NCBI GenBank assembly: GCA_027493955.1
Contig: JAOSJT010000001.1
Span: 2,715,131 to 2,779,130, forward strand
DNA from: Bacteroidia bacterium
GTDB lineage: Bacteria > Bacteroidota > Ignavibacteria > SZUA-365
Reading direction: 5' to 3'
DNA length: 64,000 bases
Position numbers and translations under genes: made by a program. The notes beneath the pieces were generated by a model that had not been told where the DNA came from, ran no database searches, and saw nothing but the letters and a program-made list of their open reading frames with translations. Of the stretch, positions 3,563-22,399 are shown piece after piece (positions within the stretch are counted from its first letter, which is position 1; the number at the start of each line of letters is the position of its first letter).

Positions 3563-3719
3563 GCCAAAGCCCCCCCCGTCAGGGAGTACTCGGGTTCGGC
3601 GATATCTTCGCCATTGATTTGCTCCTGTCCATCGGCGACAGTTTTGAACGTCGTCTGCACCTGCGCGGAGAGGCCTCCGGCGAGCAGGACGAGGAGCAGT
3701 GCGGTGATAATGACAGATC

Positions 3720-4752
3720 TCATGGAGACCTCCTTTCTTGATGATAGAAATGTTGACGGCTACTGTGCCGCCTTGGTGCCACGAATGAAAATGGCGGTAC
3801 TGTTGCTGTTTCAACTAAAAACACGCCGTTTCGTGAAACCGCGATGTCATAAATGACAAGGCCGTTGGGGAATCGCCGTGATATTTCCTCGTAGAAATAC
3901 AGATTTCTGCCATTGTAGTGCAGGACAGTCGCATAATGCCCCGCATAGAAGACATCATTGTCCGCGCGTCCATTTGCGCAGATTGGCAAGCCAACGATGC
4001 GATCCGGCGTAGGCGGCGGAATATGCAGAGTATCCCATACGGCGGGATTCACCAGCGATTGCATGTAGATGAAATCCGGGCATACCGCATGCAGGCGCTC
4101 CTCGCTCGCCCAGATAGCGGTGGCATAGGTGATCGGATGGGCGCGACCGGTTTCACGGTATATTGGGGTGATCATCCCATCCCGCAAGTGATGGAAAATT
4201 CCTCCGGTCGAGTCATAATCCCAGCCGCCGATGTAGAATTCATTCGGCCCGGCCTGCGCAAACGACTTTATCGTCTTGGCCGTGCCCGTGGGGATGGGCT
4301 CGAAGCGTTCATGCTTTGGACCGATGAAGCGGAGCAGATTTCCTCGCCCCCCGAACATGTAGACATGACCATCGGTGCCGGATTTTATTTTGCCAGTGCC
4401 AATGTACAGGCCATTGAGCTCGCGGTGGAAGCGTAATGTTGCCGAGTCGCCTCGCAGTTTCGTACTCGCGATTGGGCCCCAAAATGTGACGTTTCCGTCC
4501 TCGACAGTAACTCCGTCGAGGGCGCTGTAGGTCGTGCGGCCATATTCGTCCAGTTCGACGGCATACGGTTTGATCTCGTTCGGAGTGATGTGAAATGCAT
4601 TCGCCCTTCGCTTCATCCGCCCGCTCGACAGGCCGGGTATCTCATATCCGAGTTCCACATCGCCCACAGCCCAGACACTGGTGTCGGATTCCGCGGCTAC
4701 GGCCACGAGCGTGGAGCCGAACTTGCCGAGCACGAAAAACTCCCAGGTGTAG
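3720..4752 (-). pseudogene. C-terminal part of lipoprotein-like propeller gene Y1, cut off by the prophage
   Basis: This is the downstream part of Y1; its first codons lie beyond the prophage at 34348-34482. It is nearly identical to the intact paralogue Y2 (35515-36636), which serves as the empty-site reference. Repeated blade-like strands (DTSVWAVGDV, GHVYMFGGRG, NEFYIGGWDY, NDVFYAGHYA, NGVFLV) suggest a beta-propeller. Besides the prophage insertion, one C present in Y2 is missing near 3812, which shifts the frame and replaces the last residues. A short stretch (about 4530-4575) differs strongly from Y2 although both sides match. The copy cannot make the normal exported protein. Confidence 0.85.
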
Positions 4753-5417: not shown

Positions 5418-7556
5418 TTACAGATTTTCGATTTGCACATACCATGACGACGATGTGTTGACCGGGGTAACGTAGTATACCCGGAGGCGGAAAAAATGCG
5501 CCGTTGTTCCGCTGTTCGACTGTTGCATGAGTGCATTGGCCCAGTAAATCGGCGCATATCCATCCGCTCTCACATTCGAATTCGGCGCGGCTATGGTCGT
5601 TAAAGTTGATGGACCGGCCGGAGACCCACCGCTGCGCGTCGTTCCAGATGCAGTAGCCATCAGATTAGGTCGCCAGATTACTTGCCAGTTCGCCGTTGCG
5701 TCCGAAATGTATGGCGGGCTCGACGTGCTTGTTCGGACGGACGTTCCGTTCGCCTCCCACATCAGGATTGCTACATCATTTAGCGAATCGGAGCGGATGT
5801 CAAAATCCAGATGGCCGGTCGTCACGTTGTTTCGCACCTGGAACCAGACGACTTCCCATTCTTTCCATCCTATCCGGTTTTTCGTCACGAGCGAATCGCC
5901 TCCCGCCGAAGGGTTCATCGACTTTTGTGGCTTCATTTCACGGAAGTACCAATAGTATGCGCTATCGGATGCGACGTAATTCGTTGAATCCATTACGACG
6001 GTAATACCGCCGCCGCCGCCGCCGGTTTCGTCATCGGCAAAAATTAAGGCGTCCGCGCTTGGGTTCACCTTCACGACCTTGCCCGCGTTGCCGGTATATG
6101 ACGACGGCGTATCCGTCAGGCCGAGAAACGTGCTCGATGATGCAGTCCAAATCATGACGGAATCCTTTATCCAATCCCAATCCAGCGAGAAAAGGTAGGA
6201 TATTGTGTCTTGCGAAGGGCCATTGTATTGATGACCAACGATAACACCACCCAGCCCTACGAGCCAAACGTAATCGGCCGTTCTGTCGAGCGGAGTCCCG
6301 AGATAATTCGAGTATCCGATAATTTGACGCGTGGCCGCGCCGGCGTCGATGAATTCGAGTCCGTCTTCCGTCGCTTTGACGGCGACAAGTTTGCCGGATT
6401 GCCCAACATAGCTATCGGGCGTGTCGCGTAGCTGCAGGAATGTTGAATCGGTACAAGGTGGAGTAACGGGCTCGCCTTCGTAAATCGCGGGAAAATGGAT
6501 ATGGCTTGCGGCTGTGTCGCCTTCCATTACGAAGGTGACCGTTCGCGAGGGTACGCTCGTGCTATAGGCATATACACGCGCCAATATTCGATCACCGGTG
6601 TTCATCACCTGTTGTCCGCCGTAATAGGTCATTTCGTGACGAGCCAGCGAGGTAGTGAGCGTGGGTGTCGACAACGTAAATAGGCTGGTCTCTGTCCCGT
6701 TCGACGTCCTGTGAAGGACTTCCGTCCAGATATAACTCCCGCCAGCGGCGTTGTCGACGTAGCCGTATATGTGTACGATCCATTTGCCCGCAGGAATGAA
6801 AATCGGGCTCGTTACGGAATCGGTTGCGAATTGATGAAATAATGTCGGAGGCCCGGAGCTGACCGCCAGATTATGAACGTGCTCCGGATGGTCGGCGGGC
6901 ACGGGACGTAAATAATTGTACCCGGCAAGATCCGACGTGTCCTCGTGAAAGAAATACGTCGCCGATAATGGTTTGCCGATGATGTCATCCCAGTGTACCG
7001 GCTTCGTCAGAAACTGAATGGTGTCCGGCGCGAAAGCGCGGACGTAACTTGTGTCATACTTGACGGGATAGCCGGCAATGGAGATCGTATCGATCCTCAT
7101 AGCCCACATCTGGCGCCCGCGGCTGTAGCGAAACATGATTGTGCTGTCGGCTGGCGCGACGAGGGCAATACTCCCATTCGTGAGTGTGCCGGAACCGACG
7201 AATATGGTGTCGGCCGTGCCTCGGCATGTATCCGCGATCCGGAGATGGAAGGCGCTGTCCGCGGCATTTCCCAGCCTGGTAATGCGGAGGCAATCATCGA
7301 AGTAATACCGGGCGCGGGGGCGTCCGGCGAGATCGTCCCGCACGAGTTTGAGGCTGTCGGAAATTCGCCTGGTCACAGAGTCGATGCGTACGTGCAACTT
7401 GGTGTTGGCCGGCGTGAACTCGAAGTAGAGCCACGACCCCGGAGCGACCTGTGCGGCGAGGTCAGAGGGTGACACGAACGATGCCAGACTCAGGCTGATG
7501 AAAAACGATAGCAACGTAATAGTACGGGTTGTCGGGGTCGGTTGTCTCGTGGCCAT
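5418..7556 (-). CDS. Tail fibre or receptor-binding protein with DTPxSYxG repeats
   Basis: A 712-residue protein. Two copies of a repeat common in phage tail fibres, FLxLxDTPxSYxGxxGKxVxV..DxLxF, lie at residues about 371-404 and 474-507, followed by a Gly-rich hinge (511-517) and a C-terminal region that probably binds the host surface. The N-terminus from ATG 7556 looks like a Sec signal peptide (LLSFFISLSLASFVSP...AAQ), unexpected for a tail fibre. The first 95 bases overlap the previous gene, so a downstream non-ATG start is possible. It lies at the end of the tail operon, the usual place for a fibre gene. Identification rests on repeats and position. Confidence 0.75.
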   Translation of the reverse strand: MATRQPTPTTRTITLLSFFISLSLASFVSPSDLAAQVAPGSWLYFEFTPANTKLHVRIDSVTRRISDSLKLVRDDLAGRPRARYYFDDCLRITRLGNAADSAFHLRIADTCRGTADTIFVGSGTLTNGSIALVAPADSTIMFRYSRGRQMWAMRIDTISIAGYPVKYDTSYVRAFAPDTIQFLTKPVHWDDIIGKPLSATYFFHEDTSDLAGYNYLRPVPADHPEHVHNLAVSSGPPTLFHQFATDSVTSPIFIPAGKWIVHIYGYVDNAAGGSYIWTEVLHRTSNGTETSLFTLSTPTLTTSLARHEMTYYGGQQVMNTGDRILARVYAYSTSVPSRTVTFVMEGDTAASHIHFPAIYEGEPVTPPCTDSTFLQLRDTPDSYVGQSGKLVAVKATEDGLEFIDAGAATRQIIGYSNYLGTPLDRTADYVWLVGLGGVIVGHQYNGPSQDTISYLFSLDWDWIKDSVMIWTASSSTFLGLTDTPSSYTGNAGKVVKVNPSADALIFADDETGGGGGGITVVMDSTNYVASDSAYYWYFREMKPQKSMNPSAGGDSLVTKNRIGWKEWEVVWFQVRNNVTTGHLDFDIRSDSLNDVAILMWEANGTSVRTSTSSPPYISDATANWQVIWRPNLMATASGTTRSGGSPAGPSTLTTIAAPNSNVRADGYAPIYWANALMQQSNSGTTAHFFRLRVYYVTPVNTSSSWYVQIENL

Positions 7557-7803
7557 AGTGGATGCTCGCTATTCGTTCGGGAGGCAATTGGTAATGGTCT
7601 GTGTTGTAGATGGTAACCTGCACCCAGCGATGAGGTCCTGGATGTATTACGAGCATGCTTTCGGCATCCTCGAAATCGATGATAACGGCCTGCGCAACTT
7701 GCTGGACGATGGTCACGTTTTCGACCACGGACGTTTGCGAACCGCCCTGCAGCAGATTACGGATTTGCGCCTTGCTGAGCGTGTGGAAATCCCTGTTGAA
7801 CAT
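7462..7803 (-). CDS. Small tail-region protein, unknown
   Basis: A 113-residue protein from ATG 7803 (MFNRDFHTLSKAQ), whose start overlaps the stop of the preceding gene at 7803. The N-terminus looks helical. The remainder alternates hydrophobic and charged residues as in small beta-rich phage proteins (VENVTIVQQV, YYYVAIVFHQ). Its last 95 bases overlap the start assigned to the fibre gene. No family recognised; possibly a baseplate or tail-tip component given the position between the tape-measure cluster and the fibre. Confidence 0.6.
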   Translation of the reverse strand: MFNRDFHTLSKAQIRNLLQGGSQTSVVENVTIVQQVAQAVIIDFEDAESMLVIHPGPHRWVQVTIYNTDHYQLPPERIASIHYGHETTDPDNPYYYVAIVFHQPESGIVRVTL

Positions 7804-8264
7804 TACTCCTCCGGTTCCGGCGGAATCTCTCGAAACACGCTCATAAGCGAAGCGCTCTCGCCTTCGAACAGCACGTGAAAGGCGCTCTCGTAACCGCGCC
7901 CTTGAGGGGTGAGCGCGAAGCGCATGCCGGCGCACTCGATAACCTGTACACCATCCAGACGCCAGAGCCGGACGGTAACTCCCGTTACCTGTAGCTGCGG
8001 GAGAACTTCCTCGGAGTATATGTCATTGAGCGTGTCGATGTCCGCCTGGTAAAACAACAGTGTCAGACGTTGCTTGTAATAATGCACGTCCACAACGCCG
8101 TCGAGGCCGCGGTCCTGCACCGCTTCCTCCACGAAATCGCCGCCACCGGACGGCATGACCTTGGTCCACGTTGGCGTAACGCCTCGGGTCAGCAAAATCT
8201 CGACCTTAGACCAACCCGCGCGATCGATCGCGCCAGTAATGTCGTTTCCCAGGATATTCGGCAT
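7803..8264 (-). CDS. Tail-region protein, unknown
   Basis: A 153-residue protein (MPNILGNDITG...), separated by seven bases from the gene at 8272-9939 and touching the next gene. Its Trp and aromatic content and predicted beta strands (VVDVHYYKQRLTLLFYQ) fit a structural protein. The acidic C-terminus ends EIPPEPEE. I see no named domain. Its place among genes that follow the tape measure suggests a distal tail or tail-tip role, which is inference from order only. Confidence 0.65.
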   Translation of the reverse strand: MPNILGNDITGAIDRAGWSKVEILLTRGVTPTWTKVMPSGGGDFVEEAVQDRGLDGVVDVHYYKQRLTLLFYQADIDTLNDIYSEEVLPQLQVTGVTVRLWRLDGVQVIECAGMRFALTPQGRGYESAFHVLFEGESASLMSVFREIPPEPEE

Positions 8265-8271
8265 ACAACAC

Positions 8272-9939
8272 CTACTCGAATGGATTTGGCAAGGGAAGTT
8301 CTTCCTTGCGGATTTTTATGTGCCCGCTTTCGCTGTCCATTTCAATGCCGGTTACTTTATAGGGCCAGTCCGGGCGCTCGATGTCAGTCGTCAGGCAATA
8401 CGGAATCCAGTTGCCTACATCTTCGCTCTCACCGTCAGATCCCTCGAGCCGCGACCAGGTATCTTCGATGATTGCCCGGCCAGGTGAAAAGATCTCCTCC
8501 GCGTAGAATACGGACAGCACGCCCGACAGGCCGTGAAAGCCGTTCGGGTTGGGCTGGATCGCGAAATAGCTTGCGAGGTTATACGGCGCCCAGAGCTGGC
8601 TGGAGGTTTCGTAGAGCGGACGAATGACGTTTTTCCAACGTACCTGATTGACGATCTGCAACTGTTCCGGCGTCACTTCAATCACCATCGTCCCCCACAT
8701 GATGTTTTCCTTTTGCCAGCCGTTGAGGTCGTTCATGGTCTGGTCATCATTGAGATTGTTGTCGACGGCGTCGCCGCGATGCCCGACCGTGCGCCAATGC
8801 ACGGTCAGTTTTTTCTCCGGTCCGGCTCCGTGATAGGCATCGAAAATCGGGTATTTCGCTCCCGAGGGCGTGCGCGTGGTCACGACCACTTTGCGACCAC
8901 CACGTCTGCTGCGTGGTCCCGTCTTTTGCAGCAATACTCCAGTGGGCGCCACCTCCAAATCGTTGTCGCCGTCCACACGCATGTAACACAACACTCGCAC
9001 CCAGCGGCCGTCTTCGAGGTAGTGCTTGGTGGTCACGACAAATCCGAGCATCTCGGCCAGTTCGGCGAGAAACTCGCCCCAGGAGGAGAACTCCGCTTTC
9101 CACTCCGCCGCGAAAAGGTCATACCAGAAGTACAGCGACTCGAAACCCGTTTCGACGTAGCTGTACGGCCATACATAATTTGTAAAAGCGCGGAATTGGA
9201 TGGGTGAGGTCACCGGGTTGTCTTTATCCGGACCATACTGCGCAAGCGGCAAAGCGGTCGCCTCCTCGCGCTCGGCGAAACAGACCTTAGCCAGTTCCTC
9301 GAGATAATACTTGCAGTGGATGAGCTGGGCGTATCCGTCTTTTTTCGGTTGCACGTTCCAGGTCATATTGTTGTACCTGCCCATAACGAGACCCATCATC
9401 GCCGGACCGAGATAAACATCGTCATGCGCGAAACGGTGGTAACCTTCCGTATCCATCTTTGACTGGTCATTGAACCGCGCCTTTCCCAATGCTGACAATC
9501 CGTCATAAGCCATAATCGTAACCGTCTTGTGCCAAACGCCCCCTACGATGGCTCGGGTGTCCGGGTCCACATCGTCCAGATCTACAACACCCCAGAATCG
9601 AGGCACCCATGTTGCCGGAGCATCCGGCGTGCGCGTCCACCACAAGCGCAGCTCCGCCGATACGTTTGCCGGATTCACAAGCGCGGCGATCACCGCATCC
9701 ATTTTGATTTTTATCTCGACGCGGTCGACGGCCAGAAGCTCGTTTTCGTCGCGAGGCAATATTTTGAACGAAGGCACGGTAAAAAGCGTCACCTGACCCG
9801 CGGGCTGCTGTGGGATTTCACCAGTCCACTCATCGATAAAGTGCCGAGGATCGGCATCGTGCGTCCGCCACGAAACATCCAGCCTCCAGTAACGGCCCGC
9901 TTGAAATATCGGGTTGAAACGGTACGACTGCTGCGCCAT
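8272..9939 (-). CDS. Large distal tail or baseplate protein
   Basis: A 555-residue protein whose ATG at 9939 overlaps the end of the tape-measure gene. The sequence is rich in Trp, Tyr and beta-type stretches (AELRLWWTRTPDAPATWVPRFWGVVDLDDVD) and has no export signal. The first gene after a tape measure in siphoviruses commonly encodes the distal tail or tail-tip hub protein; about 250 residues would be usual for a minimal Dit, so this may carry extra domains. No motif is recognised, so the call is by gene order and general composition. Confidence 0.6.
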   Translation of the reverse strand: MAQQSYRFNPIFQAGRYWRLDVSWRTHDADPRHFIDEWTGEIPQQPAGQVTLFTVPSFKILPRDENELLAVDRVEIKIKMDAVIAALVNPANVSAELRLWWTRTPDAPATWVPRFWGVVDLDDVDPDTRAIVGGVWHKTVTIMAYDGLSALGKARFNDQSKMDTEGYHRFAHDDVYLGPAMMGLVMGRYNNMTWNVQPKKDGYAQLIHCKYYLEELAKVCFAEREEATALPLAQYGPDKDNPVTSPIQFRAFTNYVWPYSYVETGFESLYFWYDLFAAEWKAEFSSWGEFLAELAEMLGFVVTTKHYLEDGRWVRVLCYMRVDGDNDLEVAPTGVLLQKTGPRSRRGGRKVVVTTRTPSGAKYPIFDAYHGAGPEKKLTVHWRTVGHRGDAVDNNLNDDQTMNDLNGWQKENIMWGTMVIEVTPEQLQIVNQVRWKNVIRPLYETSSQLWAPYNLASYFAIQPNPNGFHGLSGVLSVFYAEEIFSPGRAIIEDTWSRLEGSDGESEDVGNWIPYCLTTDIERPDWPYKVTGIEMDSESGHIKIRKEELPLPNPFE

Positions 9940-12707
9940 CAGGGACCTCCCAACGTGGAGCGCGACTGCCTGAATTCCTGCAAAAGCACCACCGCGTGCA
10001 AATCGCTTCCGCGCTGCACGAACTCCACCGGCTCGGCCCTCACTCCCACGCTGATCGTGTCCTGACGCTGCCGCCTGTCCGCCTCCTCGAGCACCATCAG
10101 CGCGCGTGTAAACGTCTGCACGGCAGTCTCCACGATGCGGTCCGCAAAGCTCGAGAAGTCCCGGGCGGGCGCGATAATTTCAGGACCGGATTCTCCTACG
10201 ATTACACCTCCATGCTCGTAACCGGATATTGCGCCCTTTGCGGCCTGCAAGCCACCCTGGATAACGCCCATGGCGATCCCCGCTGTGATCAGTCCGGCGA
10301 GTCCCTTCGTCGCCAGTTCCTCGAGCGCAACAGCCACTTGCGTTATCACGGCTTTGCGTATGATAAATTCCAGCATCTCGGCGAGGATAGACCTGTATAT
10401 GGCACGCAACGCGTCCCCCGGAGACTTGGCGCCTTTGAGCGCATCGCCGAGGGCCGAACCTACCGATTGCCCGAGAGATCCGCCAAGGGCGCGATACTCG
10501 TTGAGAGTTTCCTCTTTCTGTTTCTCATCCAATTTGAGCCCTTCGGCAATGCGCTCCCTGAATCCCTTTTCGTCCACGTCGATCAATCCGCCAAAGCCAG
10601 GCAGCATCTGATACAGCGGGTCGGATGCTTTTTTCCGAAGCTCGTCAAGTTGCTCGGAGAGCTGACGCGTCTCAAGCACGGCGGCGGCGAAGTGCGGGCT
10701 GCGCGGGTCCACTTTCGACAGGCGCGCTCCCACGTCGCGTAAGCGCTTTTCCAAATCCTCTATCGATCCCGCGACCGCCCGGTTCATGGCGATGAGCCCG
10801 ATCTCCAACTGCGCCTTCTCTATGTCGCTCCGCGTCTTCGCGATCGAGAGCGCCTTATCCTTGTGCTTGATCTGCTCGCCCAACTGCAACTGCAGGTATT
10901 GCACGCGAGTGGCGAGAATATCCTCCTCGCCGGCTTTCGCATACTTGGCGCGGAGTAGCGCCAATTCCTCTTCCCTGCGCAAATTTTCCAGCGCCAGTTG
11001 CAGCGCTTCGTTCACCCCGCTACTCTTTTTTCCAGCCCCCGCACTCGTAGTGTCGGTGGCGGGTGGCGGGGCTGCTGCTACGTTTTGCAGAGCCTTCCAG
11101 TATTCCACGGTGCTCTTGATTTGTTCGTCTGTGGCGCCCTTTGCCGCCTCCAACCCGCGCACCATGTCCGCCGTTATCTTCACATTGTCCAGGGCGGCGT
11201 CGTTTTCGAGGCCCAGCATTTTCACGGCCTGCGCTCGATCCTGCAAGCGCTGCCGCTGCGCCTGATCGGCGAACGCCTCGGCGCCCCGCTGCTCGGTTCG
11301 GCGCATCAGCGCTTCGGTGCTCAGCAGCGCCTCGTTGATCTTTTGCAGACCACCGGTAAAGTTTTCGAGCACCCAATTCGCGGCGGGACCGAAGGTTTCC
11401 ACCACCGCCATCTTCACCGCGTCTACGTTGTTGTTGAGCAGCTTGAGCTGATTGGCCGCGCTCCTGGCATTCACTTCGTAGGCTTTGCCCATTGCGCCGG
11501 CGGCATTGTTCATCGCATCAAGATCGGCGGCGGCCATGGCCGCGTTCTCGCCGGTCAGCGCCAGCGCCGCCGAGCCCGCCTCGACGCTGCTGAACACTTG
11601 CGTCATGGTTTTGCCCGATGCATCCGCGGCGACCTGTAGTTTTTGGAGTGTGCCCTGCAGCCCGAGTGTTTTGAGAGCCGCGGCGCCGTTTGCAATGCCC
11701 GCCTTGGTCATGATCTCTTCGAGTTCCTTGCCGGGCTTGAGAAGCTCAACGATCGCCTGGCGCATCTGCGTCGATGCCTGCGCCGTGGGAATGCCCTGCT
11801 TGGTCATCGTCGCGATGCCGGCGCTCACCTGGTCGAATCCAACTCCCGCGCTTGCCGCAACCGGCACCACGTTCGCGATGGCCGCGTTGATTTCCTCGAA
11901 GGTTTTTTTCCCATTCTTTACGGCAGTGAACATCTGATCGCTGACCAGGCGCGCCTGATCGGCGTTGAGCCGGTACGCGTTCACCACCGAACTCAGCGCG
12001 TTGACGGCCGTCTCGGTGCTCGAGAGCCCCGCGATTCCAGCCTGCGCAGCCGTTTCAACGAAGGCTCCCGCCTTCATCGGATCGACGCCGGCCGAGATCG
12101 CCTGATACGTACCCTTCGCTATTTCGGCGGCCGTCTGCGGCAGGCGCGTGCTCATCTCGCGGGAGATCTCCCTGAAGCGCTCGAAGTTCGCCACGCCAAG
12201 CGAGCCGATGTTGCGCACCTCGGTATCGAGTTCGATGGCCTTCGCCGCGCCGTCTTTGAGTGCGGCCGTGAGCGCCGCCACGCCCCCAACAGCCGCGCCG
12301 ATACCACCGAGCTTGAGGAGCGCTCCGCCCGCCAATCCACCGTTGAGGAGCCCCCCGATACCACCGGCGGCGCCGGCGGCTCCCGCCGCGGTGGAGGCGG
12401 CGCCGGAAGCCGCGGACTTCGACAGAAGGCTTGACACCCGCCCCTCCAGGCCGCGTATCTCATCCTGCTTTTTTGCGATCGCATCGTTATCGGCGAGGTG
12501 CTCGATCTCCGCGTTCAGCTCCCGGATCTTCGCCTTGAGCGAACCGACCGAGCCTTCGGCGAACTTCGCCTGGCGTTCCACCTCCGGCAATCCCGGAGCG
12601 CGCACCGGAACGTCGATCGGCTTGCCGCCGGCGCGTTTGATGCGCTCCTCCATCGCCTTGACGTCGTCGGGGCTTACGCGCAATCGCAATGTTACAGTGT
12701 CGCTCAT
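9939..12707 (-). CDS. Tail tape measure protein (TP901-like core)
   Basis: A 922-residue protein that sets tail length and is threaded through the tail tube. Residues about 1-100 are charged and probably coiled coil, followed by an Ala/Gly-rich segment (100-145). A TP901-type core (about 150-430) contains typical phrases such as NFERFREISREMSTRLP, GTYQAISAGVDPMKAG and AASAGVGFDQVSAGIATMT. A long helical region with EELALLRAKY follows. A hydrophobic stretch (about residues 820-850, GLAGLITAGIAMGVIQGG) precedes GYEHGGVIVGESGPEIIAP, a C-terminal motif frequent in tape measures. The preceding genes show the expected frameshift pair. Confidence 0.92.
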   Translation of the reverse strand: MSDTVTLRLRVSPDDVKAMEERIKRAGGKPIDVPVRAPGLPEVERQAKFAEGSVGSLKAKIRELNAEIEHLADNDAIAKKQDEIRGLEGRVSSLLSKSAASGAASTAAGAAGAAGGIGGLLNGGLAGGALLKLGGIGAAVGGVAALTAALKDGAAKAIELDTEVRNIGSLGVANFERFREISREMSTRLPQTAAEIAKGTYQAISAGVDPMKAGAFVETAAQAGIAGLSSTETAVNALSSVVNAYRLNADQARLVSDQMFTAVKNGKKTFEEINAAIANVVPVAASAGVGFDQVSAGIATMTKQGIPTAQASTQMRQAIVELLKPGKELEEIMTKAGIANGAAALKTLGLQGTLQKLQVAADASGKTMTQVFSSVEAGSAALALTGENAAMAAADLDAMNNAAGAMGKAYEVNARSAANQLKLLNNNVDAVKMAVVETFGPAANWVLENFTGGLQKINEALLSTEALMRRTEQRGAEAFADQAQRQRLQDRAQAVKMLGLENDAALDNVKITADMVRGLEAAKGATDEQIKSTVEYWKALQNVAAAPPPATDTTSAGAGKKSSGVNEALQLALENLRREEELALLRAKYAKAGEEDILATRVQYLQLQLGEQIKHKDKALSIAKTRSDIEKAQLEIGLIAMNRAVAGSIEDLEKRLRDVGARLSKVDPRSPHFAAAVLETRQLSEQLDELRKKASDPLYQMLPGFGGLIDVDEKGFRERIAEGLKLDEKQKEETLNEYRALGGSLGQSVGSALGDALKGAKSPGDALRAIYRSILAEMLEFIIRKAVITQVAVALEELATKGLAGLITAGIAMGVIQGGLQAAKGAISGYEHGGVIVGESGPEIIAPARDFSSFADRIVETAVQTFTRALMVLEEADRRQRQDTISVGVRAEPVEFVQRGSDLHAVVLLQEFRQSRSTLGGP

Positions 12708-12985
12708 CGTGTTTTGATCAGATGTTTGGCGTCTGTGGTAAGGACGGTGCGGGCCATGCGCATGCCGAGGCGTTTCGCGAATTCAACGAAGGCCATATCG
12801 CGCAACGCGCGTTCCTCGGCCGCATCGCCCGAGGCCATAAAAAGCAGGAAGTTGTAGGTTTCTCCGTCCGGCAGCACATCGCTCAGTCCGAGGCCGCTTT
12901 GCCCCGCTCCAGCAATGATTGTATAGCCGAAAGACGGGAATGCTCGGAGTGCAGCCTGGCCATCGCGCAGCGTTCGAGCCATCGA
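12704..12985 (-). CDS. Tail-assembly chaperone extension (gpT-like), reached by a -1 frameshift
   Basis: This frame lies exactly -1 relative to the gene at 12883-13227 and joins it at a run of ten T on the minus strand (12994-12985), a strong slippery site. The joined product would read ...EMTCFFF-SMARTLRDGQAALRAF... and be about 174 residues. Independent initiation at ATG 12982 is the alternative. The frame stops at 12704, overlapping the tape-measure start (12707). In tailed phages two overlapping chaperone frames just before the tape measure, linked by a frameshift, are a conserved arrangement (lambda G/GT). The motif is seen directly; the function is from gene order. Confidence 0.7.
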   Translation of the reverse strand, partial: SMARTLRDGQAALRAFPSFGYTIIAGAGQSGLGLSDVLPDGETYNFLLFMASGDAAEERALRDMAFVEFAKRLGMRMARTVLTTDAKHLIKTR

Positions 12986-13227
12986 AAAAAAAAACACGTC
13001 ATCTCCAGCTCCAGCAGTTCCACCGGCGCGTCTTCGGCTTCGCGTGCCGGATAGCCCAACACGTCCGTCATCAGCCGGAGTTTCTGCTCTATCGTGATCA
13101 CCGCCTGCCCGGTGCGCTCGAGTGTTTGCAGCGGCTGAGACCCGATGATGCGTTCGACGAGGGCGATGGTGCCGACGGTCATCGGCACGGAGGCCGCCTT
13201 GAGTTCGTATTCGTCAAGTGGTATCAT
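12883..13227 (-). CDS. Tail-assembly chaperone (gpG-like), frameshift donor
   Basis: A 114-residue protein from ATG 13227 (MIPLDEYELKAASVP), whose start overlaps the stop of the gene ending at 13224. It is helical and charged (TIEQKLRLMTDVL, EAEDAPVELLELEM). Codons 79-81 are TTT TTT TTT inside a T10 run, after which the -1 frame continues to 12704. The zero-frame product ends ...RLSAIQSLLERGKAASD. Position directly upstream of the tape measure and the frameshift signal support the tail-chaperone call; sequence similarity alone would not. Confidence 0.7.
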   Translation of the reverse strand: MIPLDEYELKAASVPMTVGTIALVERIIGSQPLQTLERTGQAVITIEQKLRLMTDVLGYPAREAEDAPVELLELEMTCFFFRWLERCAMARLHSEHSRLSAIQSLLERGKAASD

Positions 13228-13604
13228 GCTCCCTCGCCCTCCCACACGCGGTAAATCGAGATCGGGTTCACGCCCCAGTTGCCGCACGGGTCGGGATCGT
13301 ATACGCCGCTTTCGCACACCATCCGGATTACGCGCACGTCCGAATCGCGCCCGTCCGCGTAATCGCACTCGACGTGATAATCGATGATCACAGGACTGAC
13401 CTTGATTGCGCGCAGCACTTTCACATACGCCAAGGGCATGCCCGCCAGCTGGCGTTCCGTGTTCGGCAGGCTGTCGCTCGTTGTTTTTGCGTATGTGATT
13501 TGAAGAACATCGGGGAGCTGTTCCCATTTGCGTCCGAGCCAGATGTCGAGGAACCTCGCGATTACCGGGGCGGGGTTCGAGGGCTTTTTCCGTTTCTCTT
13601 TCAT
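13224..13604 (-). CDS. Head-tail or tail-completion protein, unknown
   Basis: A 126-residue protein from ATG 13604 (MKEKRKKPSNPAP), preceded by AAGGAG a few bases upstream. It is basic at the N-terminus with a mixed beta-type C-terminal half (VIIDYHVECDYADGRDSDVRVIRMV). It is the first gene after the terminator at 13620-13652 and overlaps the tail chaperone start by four bases. The frame extends upstream to 13676, but that part crosses the terminator and is unlikely to be translated. No family recognised. Confidence 0.6.
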   Translation of the reverse strand: MKEKRKKPSNPAPVIARFLDIWLGRKWEQLPDVLQITYAKTTSDSLPNTERQLAGMPLAYVKVLRAIKVSPVIIDYHVECDYADGRDSDVRVIRMVCESGVYDPDPCGNWGVNPISIYRVWEGEGA

Positions 13605-13619
13605 TCGCGCTCCTTTGAT

Positions 13620-13652
13620 AAAAAGCCCCGGACACGAGTCCGCATCCGGGGC
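13620..13652 (-). terminator. Rho-independent terminator after the putative major tail protein gene
   Basis: On the minus strand, GCCCCGGA (13652-13645) pairs with TCCGGGGC (13632-13625) across a 12-base loop, followed by TTTTT (13624-13620). It would raise expression of the upstream gene relative to the tape-measure cluster, as is usual for major tail protein genes. Confidence 0.85.
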
Positions 13653-13672
13653 CGTCGCTGCATCGGGGGGTA

Positions 13673-14359
13673 TCAAAACTCCAATTCCACGCTCGGCATA
13701 TCGGCGGCGAGTTCGCTCGTCGTCGGGAGCGTCACCGCGTTGCCGAATCCACCCTTGTCGTCATCCGCGGCCGCAAGCAACCATCCGAGGTACTCCATGT
13801 TGGCAGGGTCCGTTGTGAAGAGGGGATCGGCGTTCGTCGGCAAAGCGGGGAAAGTCGGCGAGGTCTGACCGTGCGGTTCGAAGCGGAACGTGGCGTTGGT
13901 CGCGATGATCTGCGCGTAGTCGTGATTGCGCGTGAAGGTGCGCTCGAAATAACCGAAACCGAACTGAACGATCTTCGTTGTCGGCGTGAGCAGGACGGGG
14001 TCCACGATGAAGAATCGCTTGCCCTTGGTCCAGCGTCGGATAGAGAAGGTGTACATATCGCTCATCGCGATCACGAGCGCTTTCGTCTCCTGATCCTCGG
14101 CGCTGTCGAACTCGGAATCTTTGAGCACGTGGCGTGGACCGTGCACGAGCTGCAGCGTCAGATCCTGCCGCCCGCCCGCGGCGGATTCCGCCACGTTGTC
14201 GGATTTGCTCTGCAGGATGGTGAGCGCGTTCCACTCGGCGCCGCTCGCGGCCGCGCTGTAATCGGACTCGCATTCGATGAGCAAAACCGATGGGCCGCCG
14301 CCGCGGCGCACGTGCGTCGGGAGCGAGGGGATAACGAGGGTGCTGTCAAACGTGGGCAT
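13673..14359 (-). CDS. Putative major tail tube protein
   Basis: A 228-residue acidic protein (MPTFDSTLVIPSLP...), beta-rich with no signal or membrane segment. The gene sits alone between the tRNA and a strong intrinsic terminator, upstream of the chaperone pair and tape measure, the place of the major tail subunit in siphovirus maps. The sequence FSIRRWTKGKRFFIVDPVLL...IVQFGFGYFERTFTRNHDYAQII is compatible with a tube protein, but no domain motif is diagnostic. Inference from order and regulation; a tail terminator protein is the alternative. Confidence 0.6.
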   Translation of the reverse strand: MPTFDSTLVIPSLPTHVRRGGGPSVLLIECESDYSAAASGAEWNALTILQSKSDNVAESAAGGRQDLTLQLVHGPRHVLKDSEFDSAEDQETKALVIAMSDMYTFSIRRWTKGKRFFIVDPVLLTPTTKIVQFGFGYFERTFTRNHDYAQIIATNATFRFEPHGQTSPTFPALPTNADPLFTTDPANMEYLGWLLAAADDDKGGFGNAVTLPTTSELAADMPSVELEF

Positions 14360-14390
14360 GGTTCACTCCGAATAAAAATGGAAATTTATG

Positions 14391-14463
14391 TCGCGGGTGG
14401 AGGATTCGAACCTTCCGACCTCCAGGGCATGAGTCTGGCGAGCTACCACTGCTCCAACCCGCA
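14391..14463 (-). tRNA. Phage-borne tRNA-Met (anticodon CAT)
   Basis: The minus strand folds as a cloverleaf: acceptor TGCGGGT/ACCCGCG, D arm GAGC-AGTGGTA-GCTC, anticodon arm CCAGA-CTCATGC-CCTGG and T arm GAAGG-TTCGAAT-CCTCC, with discriminator A at 14391. No CCA is encoded. The D stem has the A11-U24 pair and the acceptor has a weak 1-72 pair, both initiator-like, but the three G-C pairs of the initiator anticodon stem are absent. There is one mismatch in each of the anticodon and T stems. A CAT anticodon could also belong to a lysidine-modified tRNA-Ile. It lies between late genes on the same strand. Confidence 0.8.
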
Positions 14464-14474
14464 AAAAGAAACTG

Positions 14475-15011
14475 TTACAGCCGGATAAAGCCCACGACGC
14501 GCCAGCCATCGTTGATGCCGCGTCGGTTGATGACCTTGCGCTCGTATTCGCTTTCCTCGCCAGCGGGCGCGGGATGCGAGATAAACACGCCCATCTCCGT
14601 CGGACCCACGGTCTCGACAATCGCACTCCAGTGCAGACGCGAGGATCGGTAGCGGAACACAACGATGTCTCCGGGCATCGGCATGTCCACGCACGCGCCC
14701 GCCTGCATAGCCTGGCGCAGGAACAGGCCCATGTCGCCGAGATTCGGTTTGATCTCGCGGCCGTTGGACTGGTCGCGCAGCTTCACGCCGGCGCGGTCCA
14801 GCGCCTCTTCGATCAGCATGGGTGTGCTGTCGCCCTGGTCGCTTTCTCCAAGGAGCTGATCGGCACCCTGTAAAAGGATGTCGTGAAACGCGGGAGCGGC
14901 CTTCGCGCCGTCATCGGCGGTATTGCCGTCGTAACCGGGAGCCGAGCCTTTTCCTTCGCCGTCTCCGTCGGGCATTTTGTTGATATCCGCTTCGTTCAAA
15001 TCGTCTTGCAT
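14475..15011 (-). CDS. Phage protein with a weak NlpC/P60-like or SH3-like C-terminal half
   Basis: A 178-residue protein. The first 45 residues are acidic and low-complexity (NKMPDGDGEGKGS...). Residues about 65-178 contain MPGDIVVFRYRSSRLHWSAIVE, resembling the GD-V-F...H-A-I-V-E strand pair of NlpC/P60 or CHAP peptidases. The expected N-terminal catalytic Cys is not in place (the only Cys is in QAGACVDMP), so enzymatic activity is doubtful. It is adjacent to the putative cell-wall enzyme at 15022-15594. It may be a degenerate lysis accessory or a structural protein. Confidence 0.55.
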   Translation of the reverse strand: MQDDLNEADINKMPDGDGEGKGSAPGYDGNTADDGAKAAPAFHDILLQGADQLLGESDQGDSTPMLIEEALDRAGVKLRDQSNGREIKPNLGDMGLFLRQAMQAGACVDMPMPGDIVVFRYRSSRLHWSAIVETVGPTEMGVFISHPAPAGEESEYERKVINRRGINDGWRVVGFIRL

Positions 15012-15021
15012 GAGTACCTCG

Positions 15022-15594
15022 CTATGCGCGCTCTTCGATGAGCACGTAGTAAATGATGCTTTGGTTCATCGCGGTCATTTCCGCATACGTGGCTTCCATG
15101 AATTCCGTGTACTGCCCGGGCCAGATCGTCTGGCAGCCCTCGCTGCTCACCGACGTGCGCGAGCCCTTGTGTATGTTGATCGCGATACCGGTGTACACAT
15201 CCGTCATGCCGTCGCGCCAGACTGGCAGGCGCTCGCCCGGCGTGGCCGGTCTGAGAGCCGGATAACCTGGTCCGCGCGAAATTCCGTGCCTGCCGCGCTT
15301 GTAGGGATGGATGCCCGGCAGCAGCGTGGCGATGCCGCGCCGGTGCGCTCCGGGGTCCGTGTTGGCATTCGCCGCAAGATGGATGCGCGGCGAAACGAGA
15401 AACATTGCGTCGTCGTACAGCTTGCGGTCATTGACGCCCGCCAGTCCCATAGTGTCCAGGTAATACCCGCGCACGCCCAGGAGCACGGCCGCGCCGTGCG
15501 CGCCAACGGAGTACCCCGCCTCATGGAGGCGCTGCATGGTGACCGCGCGTTTCTGTTGCGGCCGCGATGGTGGTATGATCTGGAAACGCGCCAT
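15022..15594 (-). CDS. Putative cell-wall enzyme with L,D-transpeptidase-like HxG...SxGC motif (lysis candidate)
   Basis: A 190-residue protein from ATG 15594, overlapping nothing upstream and ending eleven bases before the next gene. Residues 139-154 read INIHKGSRTSVSSEGC, resembling the HxG and S-x-GC motifs of the YkuD/L,D-transpeptidase fold (His142, Cys154). An N-terminal region with GLAGVNDRKLYDDAMFL precedes it. No signal peptide is present, so export would need a holin; membrane proteins follow in the neighbouring genes. In phages this motif set would act on peptidoglycan as lysin or hydrolase. Moderate confidence from the motif only. Confidence 0.55.
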   Translation of the reverse strand: MARFQIIPPSRPQQKRAVTMQRLHEAGYSVGAHGAAVLLGVRGYYLDTMGLAGVNDRKLYDDAMFLVSPRIHLAANANTDPGAHRRGIATLLPGIHPYKRGRHGISRGPGYPALRPATPGERLPVWRDGMTDVYTGIAINIHKGSRTSVSSEGCQTIWPGQYTEFMEATYAEMTAMNQSIIYYVLIEERA

Positions 15595-15596
15595 GA

Positions 15597-16136
15597 CTAA
15601 CGGGTCGAGTCGCCGGTTTCCGTGGGGGACTGCGGCCGCTCCACAAGGCGCGGATCGTCGGTGTAGATGATCGGACCTCCCGCGGCGGGCACGTTGAGCA
15701 CATACTGATTCACGCCGCCCGCAATCTTCCGGATTTGATCCGCGCCGTCGCGCAGCCATGTGGGCAGCGGCATGAGCAGAGCCAGTATCCACGGCGATAC
15801 GCCGGGACCACCACCAAGCACCTGTACGCACAAATCGGCGAGCCAGATCAGGAGCGGAGCCGCGACATACGGCGCCCACTTCGGAAACCATTTCGGCAGG
15901 GACTTGACTATTGTGCCGTCGGACAGCGTCGTTTCAATGATAAGCTGCCGCTTAAGCCAGCCGAGAATCATCGGGGCCAAAAAAGCGATCGCGACCGGGA
16001 CGAGCTGCGTCCAGTCGCCAATGAGCGCGGGAAGGTCGATCGCGGAAATATCCGGCAACTGCTGCGCCGCGGCTTCGATGGCCGCAAGCACGGCGATCGC
16101 GCAAACAACGATGAAAAGAAAAAGACGGGACTTCAT
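15597..16136 (-). CDS. Membrane protein in the lysis region, holin candidate
   Basis: A 179-residue protein from ATG 16136. The N-terminal segment (MKSRLFLFIVVCAIAVLAAI) is a signal peptide or anchor. Two further hydrophobic segments (LVPVAIAFLAPMILGWL and VAAPLLIWLADLCVQVL...WILALLMPL) follow, with a soluble C-terminus rich in Pro and acidic residues. The stop lies three bases from the start of the putative cell-wall enzyme. Multiple membrane segments next to a lysin candidate suggest a holin-like role, but its length is large for a classical holin. Confidence 0.55.
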   Translation of the reverse strand: MKSRLFLFIVVCAIAVLAAIEAAAQQLPDISAIDLPALIGDWTQLVPVAIAFLAPMILGWLKRQLIIETTLSDGTIVKSLPKWFPKWAPYVAAPLLIWLADLCVQVLGGGPGVSPWILALLMPLPTWLRDGADQIRKIAGGVNQYVLNVPAAGGPIIYTDDPRLVERPQSPTETGDSTR

Positions 16137-16144
16137 TATGAACC

Positions 16145-16672
16145 TCACTTGATGATGACTGCCAGCACGGCGGCTATCGCCGCGCCGGCGGCTGTGATCC
16201 AGCTCCACGTATTGGAGGGACATACGGCTGTTTGCGTCAGTACCGCCTCCGCCACGCGCAACGCCAGCGTCGTATAGCCCCGCTCGATCTCGTGGCTTAC
16301 GCGCACCTCGAGCGTAATGCTCGAGCTGTCGCCCAGGGCTATGGTTATGGTCGTATCTATGTCGGCCCGGGTTTCGCCCAGCCGCAAAATTTCGAAGTTC
16401 AGGCTGTCGCGCTCGATGATCAGGCGGCGCAGCGCTTCACCGTCCAAAGCCATCGCTCCGGGATCGCGCTCTACAGTATCGCGCCGCACTATCACCACGC
16501 GAGCGGGCACACGAGCTTCGTTCCACACCGTATCGCGCACGGTGTCGCGCACCGTTACGAACATGGGTTCCGCCGGCGCGCCCGGCTCCGGAGAACCGGA
16601 GCCGAGCCACGCCCACAGGGCCGCGAGGATGAGCGTAATCGCCCAGGGAAGGATTTTCTTCAAGCTTTGCAT
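16145..16672 (-). CDS. Bitopic membrane protein of the lysis region, spanin-like candidate
   Basis: A 175-residue protein with an N-terminal membrane segment (ILPWAITLILAALWAWL), a periplasmic-type charged middle containing the repeats VRDTVRDTV and VVIVRRDTVERD, and a C-terminal hydrophobic segment (WSWITAAGAAIAAVLAVII). This topology resembles small phage envelope proteins, including unimolecular spanins. Its start overlaps the end of the 69-residue membrane protein gene by 13 bases. No family motif recognised. Confidence 0.55.
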   Translation of the reverse strand: MQSLKKILPWAITLILAALWAWLGSGSPEPGAPAEPMFVTVRDTVRDTVWNEARVPARVVIVRRDTVERDPGAMALDGEALRRLIIERDSLNFEILRLGETRADIDTTITIALGDSSSITLEVRVSHEIERGYTTLALRVAEAVLTQTAVCPSNTWSWITAAGAAIAAVLAVIIK

Positions 16673-16869
16673 TGCATGCCCTGCATTATGGCGCGGATGA
16701 TGATCGTGAGTTGGTCGGTACGCACGTAGTCCCTCGCAACGAGCACCTCGAGTGAGGTTACGCGCCCGTGCAATTCGTCGGAGCTACGCTTAAGGTCTTT
16801 CAGCAGCCAAACGGCCACTCCGGATAGGGCCGAGGCGAGCAGCGATATTGCGAGAATCGCGTACTCCAT
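16660..16869 (-). CDS. Small single-span membrane protein, holin-like
   Basis: A 69-residue protein from ATG 16869: one N-terminal membrane helix (AILAISLLASALSGVAVWLL) and a charged amphipathic tail (HGRVTSLEVLVARDYVRTDQL). Size and topology match class III holins or holin-associated proteins. The gene starts two bases before the previous stop at 16872. The longer frame upstream to 17592 runs antisense-like through other genes and is not used. Confidence 0.6.
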   Translation of the reverse strand: MEYAILAISLLASALSGVAVWLLKDLKRSSDELHGRVTSLEVLVARDYVRTDQLTIIIRAIMQGMQCKA

Positions 16870-16871
16870 AC

Positions 16872-17270
16872 TTAATACGGCTTTCGTATGGCCACGTCCA
16901 GCGTCAGCGTATCCGCCTTCTGGAAATTGAGAATGAACTTGCCGCGCTTCGGCACCATGTGCGTTAACCACGGGTGATTGTCCAGCACGCCGGGGGCGCG
17001 CGCCCCCTTGCTCACGCGCGTAAAATGCACTGTGCACGTCGAGTCGTAACCCGGGACCACGAGCGTATCCGCCCAGGCAACCGAATCGGACAGTTGCAAC
17101 TGGAACTTCATCTCGCCGCGATAAAACGCGCGGTCGGGCAGGGTGATGGTGTGCGGATGGAGAGTCTCCGAGCCGTAGGTCGGTTGCGTCTGCGCCGTCG
17201 CCTGCCCCGGCATGCCCGCGAGGAGCATGCCGAAGAGGCTCAGGGTAAGGAGTGCGAGAAAGGCTTTCAT
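16872..17270 (-). CDS. Exported phage-encoded protein, unknown
   Basis: A 132-residue protein with a clear Sec signal peptide (MKAFLALLTLSLFGMLLAG...ATAQ). The mature part of about 105 residues is beta-like (TITLPDRAFYRGEMKFQLQL, KRGKFILNFQKADTLTLDV). It lies between the major capsid gene and the small membrane proteins. A signal-bearing protein within a phage late operon suggests a role in the host envelope, such as lysis control or superinfection exclusion; that is inference. About 108 bases of non-coding DNA separate it from the capsid gene. Confidence 0.6.
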   Translation of the reverse strand: MKAFLALLTLSLFGMLLAGMPGQATAQTQPTYGSETLHPHTITLPDRAFYRGEMKFQLQLSDSVAWADTLVVPGYDSTCTVHFTRVSKGARAPGVLDNHPWLTHMVPKRGKFILNFQKADTLTLDVAIRKPY

Positions 17271-17378
17271 GGTCTATTTCCTTGATTCTTGGTTTGCGGT
17301 TGTCCGGTAATCGCGGGAGCGCCGGGGCCGGGAGCGCCACTCTGGCTCGACCCCGGCGTCCCTGTCTTGGGGGTATTA

Positions 17379-18305
17379 TCAGCTCGCCTGAATTTCGTCG
17401 ATCACGTAGATCGATTCGTCCGAAAGAATTTCCATGTCGATGTCGAACTCCACCTTCGTGGTCCAGTGCGGGTCGATCAGCCCAAGGTCTTTGACAACCA
17501 GACCCACGTTGCTCGCGAAGGCGATATCCTGCTGCTCGCCCGAGCGGCCGACGATGACTTTGGTCGCGTTTGCGCCCGCGCCCGACGTCCACGGCAGCAC
17601 GCGCGCGCCCGAAGAGCTGTAGCCGGCAATCACGATCGGTACGTTCTCGATGCTCCGCACCTGCGTGCCGAGCTCATTCATGCCGAGTTGCACATAACCC
17701 ATGCCCAGCGTGGAGAGCCGCGAGCGCACGCCCGAGTCCATGATGATGAACTGCGCGCCGCCCGGAATGTCGCTGACCGCGTACGCGATCTTTTCCACGA
17801 GCTTCTTCACCTTGTCGTCGGTGGCGAGCGTGTCGCTCAGCGAGGTGGTGCGTCCGGCGGGCAGCGATGCGAGCATGCCGTCCCAGCGGCGGGTATCCCC
17901 AACGGTGGTGTTGTTCACAACCGCATACTGCAGGTTCTGGCCCACGCGGCGCGCCCACTTCTTCATTTCGCGCAAACGCAGCGTGGCGAGCGCCAGCGCC
18001 TTGTCTCCGGCATGCCGGCGCACGTGCGCATCGTCCACCTGGATCTTGCCGCCGAAAATCTTCAGAGCAATGTCCGCGTAGTCCGGATCAACGATGTTGT
18101 CGGGGAAGGGGGCGTTCAGGTCGCGGTGCTCGCCACCAGTGGCCGTGGAATCCTTGAGGGGTTTGTCGGCGGAGCCCACAATCTGGTAGAACTCCATGTA
18201 GTCGAGGAGCGGGCACCACTGCCGGAGCTCCGCGGATATCAGCGAGCGCTGCTGCTGATTTTCCTGGCCGGTTTCGGGCGTGTTGCCCAAGTCGAAGAAC
18301 TTCAT
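17379..18305 (-). CDS. Major capsid protein
   Basis: A 308-residue protein, a normal length for HK97-fold coat proteins. It follows the scaffold-like gene and starts at MKFFDLGNTPETG. Phrases such as REMKKWARRVGQNLQYAVVNNT, GGAQFIIMDSGVRSRL, PIVIAGYSSSGARVLPW and WTTKVEFDIDMEILSDES match the spine-helix, P-domain and A-domain style of coat proteins of Mu-like and related phages. No protease gene is recognised, and the scaffold precedes it directly. The gene is on the opposite strand to terminase and portal, which is unusual. Confidence 0.8.
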   Translation of the reverse strand: MKFFDLGNTPETGQENQQQRSLISAELRQWCPLLDYMEFYQIVGSADKPLKDSTATGGEHRDLNAPFPDNIVDPDYADIALKIFGGKIQVDDAHVRRHAGDKALALATLRLREMKKWARRVGQNLQYAVVNNTTVGDTRRWDGMLASLPAGRTTSLSDTLATDDKVKKLVEKIAYAVSDIPGGAQFIIMDSGVRSRLSTLGMGYVQLGMNELGTQVRSIENVPIVIAGYSSSGARVLPWTSGAGANATKVIVGRSGEQQDIAFASNVGLVVKDLGLIDPHWTTKVEFDIDMEILSDESIYVIDEIQAS

Positions 18306-18349
18306 ATCTGCCTCGTGAAAAATTGAGTCTCGTTTTCGTTGGGTGGTGG

Positions 18350-18979
18350 TCAGACCTTGCCGGCCATGCCGTCGATGATTTCCTGCAGCGCCGCGTCCTC
18401 CAGCGCTTTGCGTTCGGCGTGCGCATCGTTGGGCGAGTAGCTGCGGCGTTCGCCGCCCTTGCTCTCTTCGCTCCTCGGCTGCACGCCCTGAGTACCCGCG
18501 CCCTTGAGGGCGGGGTTGACGGGGAGCTGGCTCGTGGTGTCGATAAACACGTCCAGCGCCTTGCCGTACTTCTCCGCGTTCTCGGGCTTGAGGTATTCGT
18601 CGCTCTGCGCCTTCGTGATGCGCCCCTCGGCAACGAGCTTGGCCACGTGATCGACGTACTTCTGCTTCTGCGCGGCGGCTTCCTGGGCGGTGCGCTCGGC
18701 CTGTCCCGCCTTCGTCGCGTCCACAACCACCTTCAGCCCGCTTGTCAACTCTCCAACAGTGTTTTTCAGGGATTCGAGGTCCGCGAGCACCTCCGGAGGC
18801 AGAGCGGCAACGGCCGCGCCCTCCGCCGGCTTATCGGCGGGTTTCGCCGGCGCGACGGGCTTCGCGAGCGAATCCTCGATACCATCGAGATCCTTCTCGA
18901 GGTCTTTGAGTTTCGACTCGTCCGCGTCGGCGGGCAGGAGACCGTGCTTCTTGAAGAGGTTGTAAAGCTGCTTGGCCAT
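18350..18979 (-). CDS. Capsid scaffold protein candidate
   Basis: A 209-residue protein from ATG 18979 (MAKQLYNLFKKHG). It is highly charged and helical, with an Ala/Pro/Lys-rich linker (AKPVAPAKPADKPAEGAA), probable coiled coil (ADLESLKNTVGELTSGLKVV) and a basic C-terminus, typical of phage scaffolds, which organise coat protein and are later expelled. It ends 45 bases before the major capsid start and is the first gene of the minus-strand late operon. No protease signature is seen. Confidence 0.7.
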   Translation of the reverse strand: MAKQLYNLFKKHGLLPADADESKLKDLEKDLDGIEDSLAKPVAPAKPADKPAEGAAVAALPPEVLADLESLKNTVGELTSGLKVVVDATKAGQAERTAQEAAAQKQKYVDHVAKLVAEGRITKAQSDEYLKPENAEKYGKALDVFIDTTSQLPVNPALKGAGTQGVQPRSEESKGGERRSYSPNDAHAERKALEDAALQEIIDGMAGKV

Positions 18980-19302
18980 TGGGGGTCCTTCGTTGAGTTT
19001 TAGCGACCGGAGCCGCGAGGTACATGATGCAAGATCGCCGGGTGGCGAAACGAAATCATGTTGCATGCGCATGCAACATTTTTTTCATCGAGGAGCGAGC
19101 GAGATTGCCCTTGAGACCTTGCGCGGAGCGCAAGGTCTCAAGGCCATCCGGGCCGCAATCTCGGAGAACACACGGGGGGCCTCGGAATTTGCTTGGTAAC
19201 ACGTTGATAAGCCCACTCCGGCCCGCTCCGCTCCCGAGAACGACCCGTTGGACCCTAAAAACGATCGCCCCGCAGAAACGCTCTATGACCGCCGGAGGCA
19301 CC
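18980..19302. promoter_or_regulatory. Divergent late-operon control region with a 22-bp palindrome and a long stem-loop
   Basis: This 323-bp non-coding stretch separates the divergent late operons. It holds a perfect palindrome ATGTTGCATGC/GCATGCAACAT (19058-19079) followed on the plus strand by seven T. It also holds a 16-bp perfect stem, CCTTGAGACCTTGCGC (19109-19124) with its inverse at 19128-19143 across a GGA loop, extended by an outer pair CGAGATTGC/GCAATCTCG (19100-19108, 19155-19163). These could be sites for a late activator, a terminator or a structured RNA. GGAGG lies before the ATG at 19303. Confidence 0.6.
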
Positions 19303-19689: not shown

Positions 19690-20105
19690 CCAACCCGCAA
19701 GACTTTATCGACATGGCCGAGGCCATAGCCCAAGCCCTCGCGGACGCCGCAACCGAGATCGGCATCACAACCGCCGAACTCCGCTTCGAAGGGCAGGGCG
19801 TGGACATGGTCGCGCCGGGCATCATCGTCATGTTCTCCCCGCCCGCCGCGCCCGACGCCGCGCGCGGCCTGCCGCAATTCCAGTCGTGGGAGCTCACGCT
19901 CTTCGTGTGCGCCTCCGCCAAAGCCACCGTCGCGCACGCGGCGGTGGAGGCAATGACCATCGCGCAAAAAGCGCACATGATCCTCCGCGCCTGGCGCGGA
20001 ATGCTCGAACTCAACGCCGCCGAGCCCTTCGCCTTCGTGCGCGCGCTTCCAGACAACTTCATCTGCGCGGTGAACTATGACGTCCCCTTCAGCCTCTTCC
20101 CGTAA
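19686..20105 (+). CDS. Mu gp37-like (DUF1834) tail-region protein
   Basis: A 139-residue protein using GTG 19686, which overlaps the previous stop; this is the start that fits the coupling and gives MTNPQDFIDMAEAI. The sequence (QSWELTLFVCASAKATVAHAAVEAM) fits a DUF1834-type neck or tail-completion protein, which follows gp36 in Mu. The order 36-37 is retained. The family call is by order plus general pattern rather than a firm motif. The next gene starts within its last 29 bases. Confidence 0.55.
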   Translation: MTNPQDFIDMAEAIAQALADAATEIGITTAELRFEGQGVDMVAPGIIVMFSPPAAPDAARGLPQFQSWELTLFVCASAKATVAHAAVEAMTIAQKAHMILRAWRGMLELNAAEPFAFVRALPDNFICAVNYDVPFSLFP

Positions 20106-20763
20106 AGCAAAGTCCGCGCCGAAAAAACCGTCGAAGGCCGCGTCCAAGCCGGAGCCCATGGACCCAAAGCAAAAACGCGCGCCCAAAATGCCCGGCAAGC
20201 TCCGCACGGGAGAGGAACGCCGCCCGGGCCGCCCCCGCAACGACGGCAAGCCCCCGCGCAAAGTGCGCAAGCCGCTGCCCATCAAGGTCCGGCGCGAAAT
20301 AAAAATCATGCTCGACGAAGGCAAGCCGATTTCGCAAATCAAGCTGCGCTTCAAACGCTACGATCCGACGGACGCCCAGATAAATGGCATCAAATACGGA
20401 CGCACCAAAACCGTTAAGACGCCCCGCAGCGATTCGCACGATTCGCCCGTCGGAGCCGACGCGCCCATCCGCAAGTCCAACGATGCCGTCGCGCTCATCC
20501 GCGACGGCCTGGTCGAAGCGCTCAACCAGCTCGCCGTCCGCACGCGCGTTACTCCCGAAGATCGCATCGAACTGCTCAAGGATGCGTCGCTCGTCAACCA
20601 ACGCACAACGCGCGCATCGCTCGTCAACAGCATGGGCCGTCGCGACGCCGAAGTGATCCTGGAAATCATCCGTATGTACGAAGCCAACGCCACCGAGGAA
20701 GAGGCCATCGCGATTTACAAACAGGCGGTGGACATCGTCAAACGGAGGTCCGATGCGGAGTGA
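20077..20763 (+). CDS. Terminase small subunit candidate
   Basis: A 228-residue protein with a strongly basic, Pro/Lys-rich N-terminus (about residues 1-70) that includes an AT-hook-like RPGRPRN. A helical HTH-like part follows (IKVRREIKIMLDEGKPISQIKLRFKRY), and the C-terminal half is helical (EVILEIIRMYEANATEEEAIAIYKQAVDIV). DNA recognition for packaging is the likely role, since it overlaps the large subunit start by 11 bases. Mu-like phages carry small subunits of the DUF3486 type here; similarity is not certain. Confidence 0.65.
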   Translation: MTSPSASSRKAKSAPKKPSKAASKPEPMDPKQKRAPKMPGKLRTGEERRPGRPRNDGKPPRKVRKPLPIKVRREIKIMLDEGKPISQIKLRFKRYDPTDAQINGIKYGRTKTVKTPRSDSHDSPVGADAPIRKSNDAVALIRDGLVEALNQLAVRTRVTPEDRIELLKDASLVNQRTTRASLVNSMGRRDAEVILEIIRMYEANATEEEAIAIYKQAVDIVKRRSDAE

Positions 20764-22390: not shown

Positions 22391-22399
22391 GGACCCATT

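Follow-up and report, generated by a model that had tools for sequence, protein, structure and literature searches.

The probably Mu-like prophage in the window, by which we mean the whole 64-kb stretch of DNA analysed, very probably makes both a short and a longer form of a predicted tail-building helper, as judged from the sequence. In the favoured reading, to which we give a probability of about 0.78, the two forms would be a tail chaperone pair of the lambda G/GT type, the longer being a 174-aa fusion that arises when a minority of ribosomes slip by -1 on a U_UUU_UUU heptamer within a run of ten T (T10). We infer the slippage, its occurrence on the ribosome rather than on RNA polymerase and the chaperone function, the chaperone identity being taken from gene position and not from homology. 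The device itself, of the lambda G/GT kind, is already known. What differs is the slip site, and T10 represents the long end of a class of U-run slip sites that is widespread among the prophages of the phylum. The features of the region are given in Table 1.

Table 1. Positions of the proposed frameshift pair, its slip site and the neighbouring tail genes in the window.
Feature	Position	Strand	Details
ORF1, frame 0	13227–12883	-	ATG at 13227; short (G-like) product, 114 codons, 114 aa
T10 slip site	12994–12985	-	Run begins at the third position of a codon (TGT TTT TTT TTT)
Frame -1 extension (T-like part)	12994–12704	-	96 codons counted from the run
GTG 12997 and ATG 12982	12997–12980	-	Only frame -1 start codons near the run; possible independent starts
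GGAGCTGGAG, with two SD-like GGAG	13012–13003	-	14 and 8 nt before T10; possible stimulator
Tape measure protein (TMP)	12707–9939	-	PF10145, E=1.8e-31; phrog_991, E=1.2e-51
Small tail-module gene adjoining ORF1	13224–13604	-	tblastn E=1.4e-4 to L004 15315–15644; no family match
Gene where the major tail protein is normally encoded	13673–14359	-	Position only; no family match

The prophage was classed as probably Mu-like because its TMP matched PF10145 and phrog_991, its portal the Mu-type family PF06074 (E=2.6e-47), its head protein phrog_212 and its terminase phrog_38. A match to the I protein family PF10123 (E=3e-5) was just under the cut-off, and a DDE_2 match at 27128–28927 was weak (E=0.009). 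The structural module is divergent, with the terminase and portal on the plus strand (20077–24207), whereas the minus strand encodes the protease and the head and tail proteins (5418–19072). An IS transposase (2391–3521; PF01609, E=1.7e-14) adjoins the tail end of the prophage.

It was found that the run comprises exactly ten T and lies close to the 3′ end of ORF1. Frame 0 reads across it as ACG TGT TTT TTT TTT CGA and continues for 36 codons past it, and frame -1 reads TTT TTT TTT TCG ATG and is then open to a TGA at 12706–12704. The U_UUU_UUU heptamer, an in-phase slippery heptamer of the form X_XXY_YYZ in the overlap of the two frames, fits T10 at two places, and a one-base backward slip at any point of the run gives the same 174-aa joined protein. 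The pair sits directly upstream of the TMP gene, the TGA of the extension overlapping the TMP ATG by 4 nt (ATGA). An earlier note on this DNA had described the run, the frame leading to the TMP start and the 174-aa joined product, and all three were confirmed. Its statement that the second frame opens exactly at the run was mistaken, as the last upstream stop of frame -1 is at 13216–13214 and the frame is stop-free from 13213, which is 219 nt before T10; only its first possible starts are at the run.

Under the favoured reading, most ribosomes would read ORF1 to its own stop and release the 114-aa product. A minority would slip one base back on the U-run, with two tRNA-Phe re-pairing on U_UUU_UUU, and would continue in frame -1 to the end of the extension. 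By analogy with lambda, the short form may bind the TMP and the long form may bring in the tail tube protein. ORF1 was modelled as an all-helical protein of six helices (AlphaFold2, single sequence; mean pLDDT 74), and a fold search with this model gave no significant match. Neither ORF1 nor the extension matched a Pfam or PHROG family, and no close relatives of the window proteins were found among the viral and genome contigs searched. Known tail chaperones often show no similarity in sequence (PMC5009743).

The run was described in the earlier note as striking in GC-rich DNA. T10 is the sole homopolymer of nine or more bases in the window, and 21 separate runs of at least ten T occur in the 5.24-Mb genome, both strands counted. 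Over the 331 nt in which both frames are open, approximately 7e-4 such runs are expected, and approximately 2e-4 in the codon phase of T10. The all-T spelling TGT TTT TTT TTT of the residues C-F-F-F has a probability of 0.005 under the codon usage of the prophage. A codon-usage score trained on six prophage genes was +0.44 bits per codon for frame 0 in the body of ORF1 up to the run, intermediate in the overlap of the two frames, and +0.51 for frame -1 past the ORF1 stop, where the other two frames scored -0.66 and -0.80. The coding signal passes from frame 0 to frame -1 across the T10 stretch.

Relatives were sought with the head protein, which led to 15 other genomes of the phylum, from which stretches at 14 places were examined, and with the TMP, which led to a genome of the same bacterial family (L004). 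In three relatives (L025, L028 and L036) a T9 run was found near the end of the gene preceding the TMP gene, in the same codon phase as T10, with a frame -1 that is closed by upstream stops and ends +3, -1 and -4 nt from the TMP gene, respectively. Two further relatives have an in-phase T7, followed in L024 by a frame -1 of 108 codons and in L004 by an extension ending 4 nt within the next gene. In the window the small tail-module gene precedes the frameshift pair, whereas its relative in L004 (15273–15662) comes after the pair and directly before the TMP gene. An in-phase T-run with a frame -1 running on toward the TMP gene recurs in distant relatives, in line with the conservation check proposed in the earlier note.

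The first frame -1 start codon in all five relatives is 42–60 codons past the slip site, so that a full-length extension requires a shift. This bears on a reading in which the window holds two separate genes, with frame -1 starting at the GTG or the ATG and no shift taking place. Both start codons do exist, and the GTG has a GGAG 5 nt upstream; relatives of the same layout, by contrast, have no start near the run, and two separate genes would leave a long in-phase run unexplained, making this reading very improbable. The absence of an independent start holds directly in the five relatives, whereas for the window, with its GTG and ATG, it carries over by analogy only. The recurrence of the in-phase run in relatives without a near start also supports the proposal that the arrangement mirrors lambda G/GT.

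The same relatives bear on a sequencing error or a real homopolymer indel, under which the gene would be a single uninterrupted frame (T8 or T11) or recently broken. Homopolymers are prone to error in long-read assemblies; against this, independent relatives show the same relation of frame 0 to frame -1 as a true T10 gives, and the T9 of L036 was found again in two metagenome contigs. The 36-codon tail of frame 0 past the run also argues against an error or a broken gene, and we consider such an origin highly unlikely.

To survey the wider phylum, PF10145 TMP loci and their upstream DNA were taken from three draws of 395, 391 and 345 genomes and scanned for ORFs that extend in frame -1 and carry an in-phase homopolymer. 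This yielded 27 further T-type sites (T6N–T9) and 20 A-type sites, the remaining loci having neither. Codon phase 2 was found in 29 of 30 chaperone T-runs, a count that is partly circular since most survey loci were chosen for an in-phase run. Conservation of the extension protein is independent of this phase-based selection: in nine members of one family, ranging from 29 to 59 % GC, the extension aligns throughout and has a conserved core WY...LA.ND..KY..VR. The window extension showed a suggestive motif against the profile of this family, but not a significant one, as 9 % of shuffles scored equally well. Three loci joined to the T7 family by ORF1 similarity (L133, L134 and L135) carry an A9 (AAAAAAAAATTTC) at the corresponding slip place, and this replacement of T7 by A9 points to selection for the slip itself and not for the encoded residues.

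No long T-run was found at the chaperone site of the named cultured phages of Bacteroidota hosts that were checked. The slip heptamer of Flavobacterium phage FPSV-S1 is A_AAA_AAG, and jmh42 and Versailles carry other heptamers. The T-type is therefore common without being universal. In FPSV-S1 (3225–3931) the -1 frame following A_AAA_AAG reaches 6 nt before the TMP gene, and the joined gene is unannotated.

A Shine–Dalgarno (SD)-like element upstream of the slip site was defined as AGGA, GGAG or GAGG starting 12–20 nt before the run, a range that was set after seeing the data. In the window alone such a tetramer is not significant, its chance probability being 0.45 from codon usage. Among T-type sites it was present in 21 of 33, compared to 7.9 expected from synonymous-codon sampling and 3.0 from other positions in the same genes, and in none of 44 control in-phase runs of at least six T in other ORFs. 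When each protein cluster was represented by a single locus, the values were 8.7 observed and 4.3 expected (median p=0.0035). The A-type sites showed no enrichment (3 of 20). Given the post hoc range and partly related loci, the enrichment at T-type sites is a strong lead rather than a completed test. The 3′ end of the host 16S rRNA contains CCTCC, and SD-like sequences precede the starts of several prophage genes. By 16S similarity the phylum is probably Bacteroidota; a 16S pattern gave no host match, and the two top-ranked plasmid-borne 16S copies came from Persicobacter (Bacteroidota), at 80 %.

A slip could also be made by RNA polymerase, with transcripts carrying one extra U, or two fewer, joining the frames for normal translation. 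The window does present the expected setting, a sense-strand run of A or T at least about nine bases long together with conservation of the shifted frame, although most relatives have just T6N–T8. T10 is also longer than nine bases, the length from which A/T runs are avoided in the genes of many bacteria because of slippage (PMC1088944). The SD-like element was also present in only one of six sites of nine or more T, compared to 20 of 27 shorter sites (T6N–T8), a difference (Fisher p=0.016) that involves non-independent loci and is weak by cluster. However, the T6N–T7 runs usual in the relatives are too short for efficient polymerase slipping, codon phase should make no difference to a polymerase and yet is shared by the window and the three T9 relatives, all four first spotted by run length, and the window itself carries an upstream GGAG. 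We therefore regard polymerase slippage as an unlikely source of the fusion. Much the same low weight is given to a mixed scheme, in which phages of one phylum would serve the same junction by two mechanisms: T6N–T8 sites would be ribosomal and assisted by the upstream SD-like element, and T9–T10 sites such as that of the window, having no stimulator, would depend largely on polymerase slippage. To our knowledge, such slippage would be without precedent among phage tail chaperones.

The ribosomal shift is favoured because T-type sites in the phylum are usually T6N–T7, because an upstream SD sequence is a known stimulator of ribosomal frameshifting (PMC4066793), and because U_UUU_UUY shifts efficiently by -1 in E. 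coli (PMC4066793) and P2 uses TTTTTTG (PMC3091744). Counting against it, early work in E. coli found U_UUU_UUU to be less shifty than A_AAA_AAG (PMC5009743). No downstream stimulatory RNA structure was found, the region folding worse than most shuffles (z +1.2) and giving no Rfam match. A long homopolymer within a coding region could alternatively suggest phase variation, in which the run length differs between cells and toggles the long form. This is extremely unlikely, as lambda needs both chaperone forms in a set ratio (PMC5009743) and the T6N–T7 runs of the relatives are too short to vary readily.

For the window, the ribosomal reading supplies a fusion gene that the annotation of this little-studied, probably Mu-like prophage lacks, and U-run slip sites are apparently common in the tail genes of the phylum's prophages. 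A search of open-access papers found none that dealt specifically with tail chaperone frameshifting in Bacteroidota. The anti-SD sequence of Bacteroidia is reportedly occluded and plays little part in initiation, with the prfB +1 shift noted as the exception (PMC8710568). Should the SD-like enrichment hold up, ribosomes would pair with internal SD sequences at T-type sites during elongation, which would make the -1 sites a second exception beside the prfB +1 shift.

Among known systems, lambda G/GT and the HK97-type chaperone cluster of GeneTack represent the same device, but the slip motif of lambda G/GT is GGGAAAG and that of the window is T10. Protein homology between lambda G/GT and the window pair is not detectable, and the window pair is predicted from sequence. 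The E/E+E′ pair of P2 is similar in having a -1 shift on a U-run heptamer, TTTTTTG, with no downstream RNA structure, in a tail operon just before the TMP gene (PMC3091744). It differs in having six T and a G compared to ten T here and T6N–T9 in the relatives, and protein homology was not found. The E. coli dnaX site likewise combines a homopolymeric slip site with a nearby upstream SD-like element, as do most T6N–T8 relatives, but it is an A-run followed by a downstream hairpin, which is absent here (PMC5600365). In the transcriptional slippage of Thermus dnaX and IS elements, a sense-strand coding homopolymer of at least nine bases also joins two frames (PMC1088944); those are different genes, and the shorter runs in the relatives of the window argue against polymerase slippage here.
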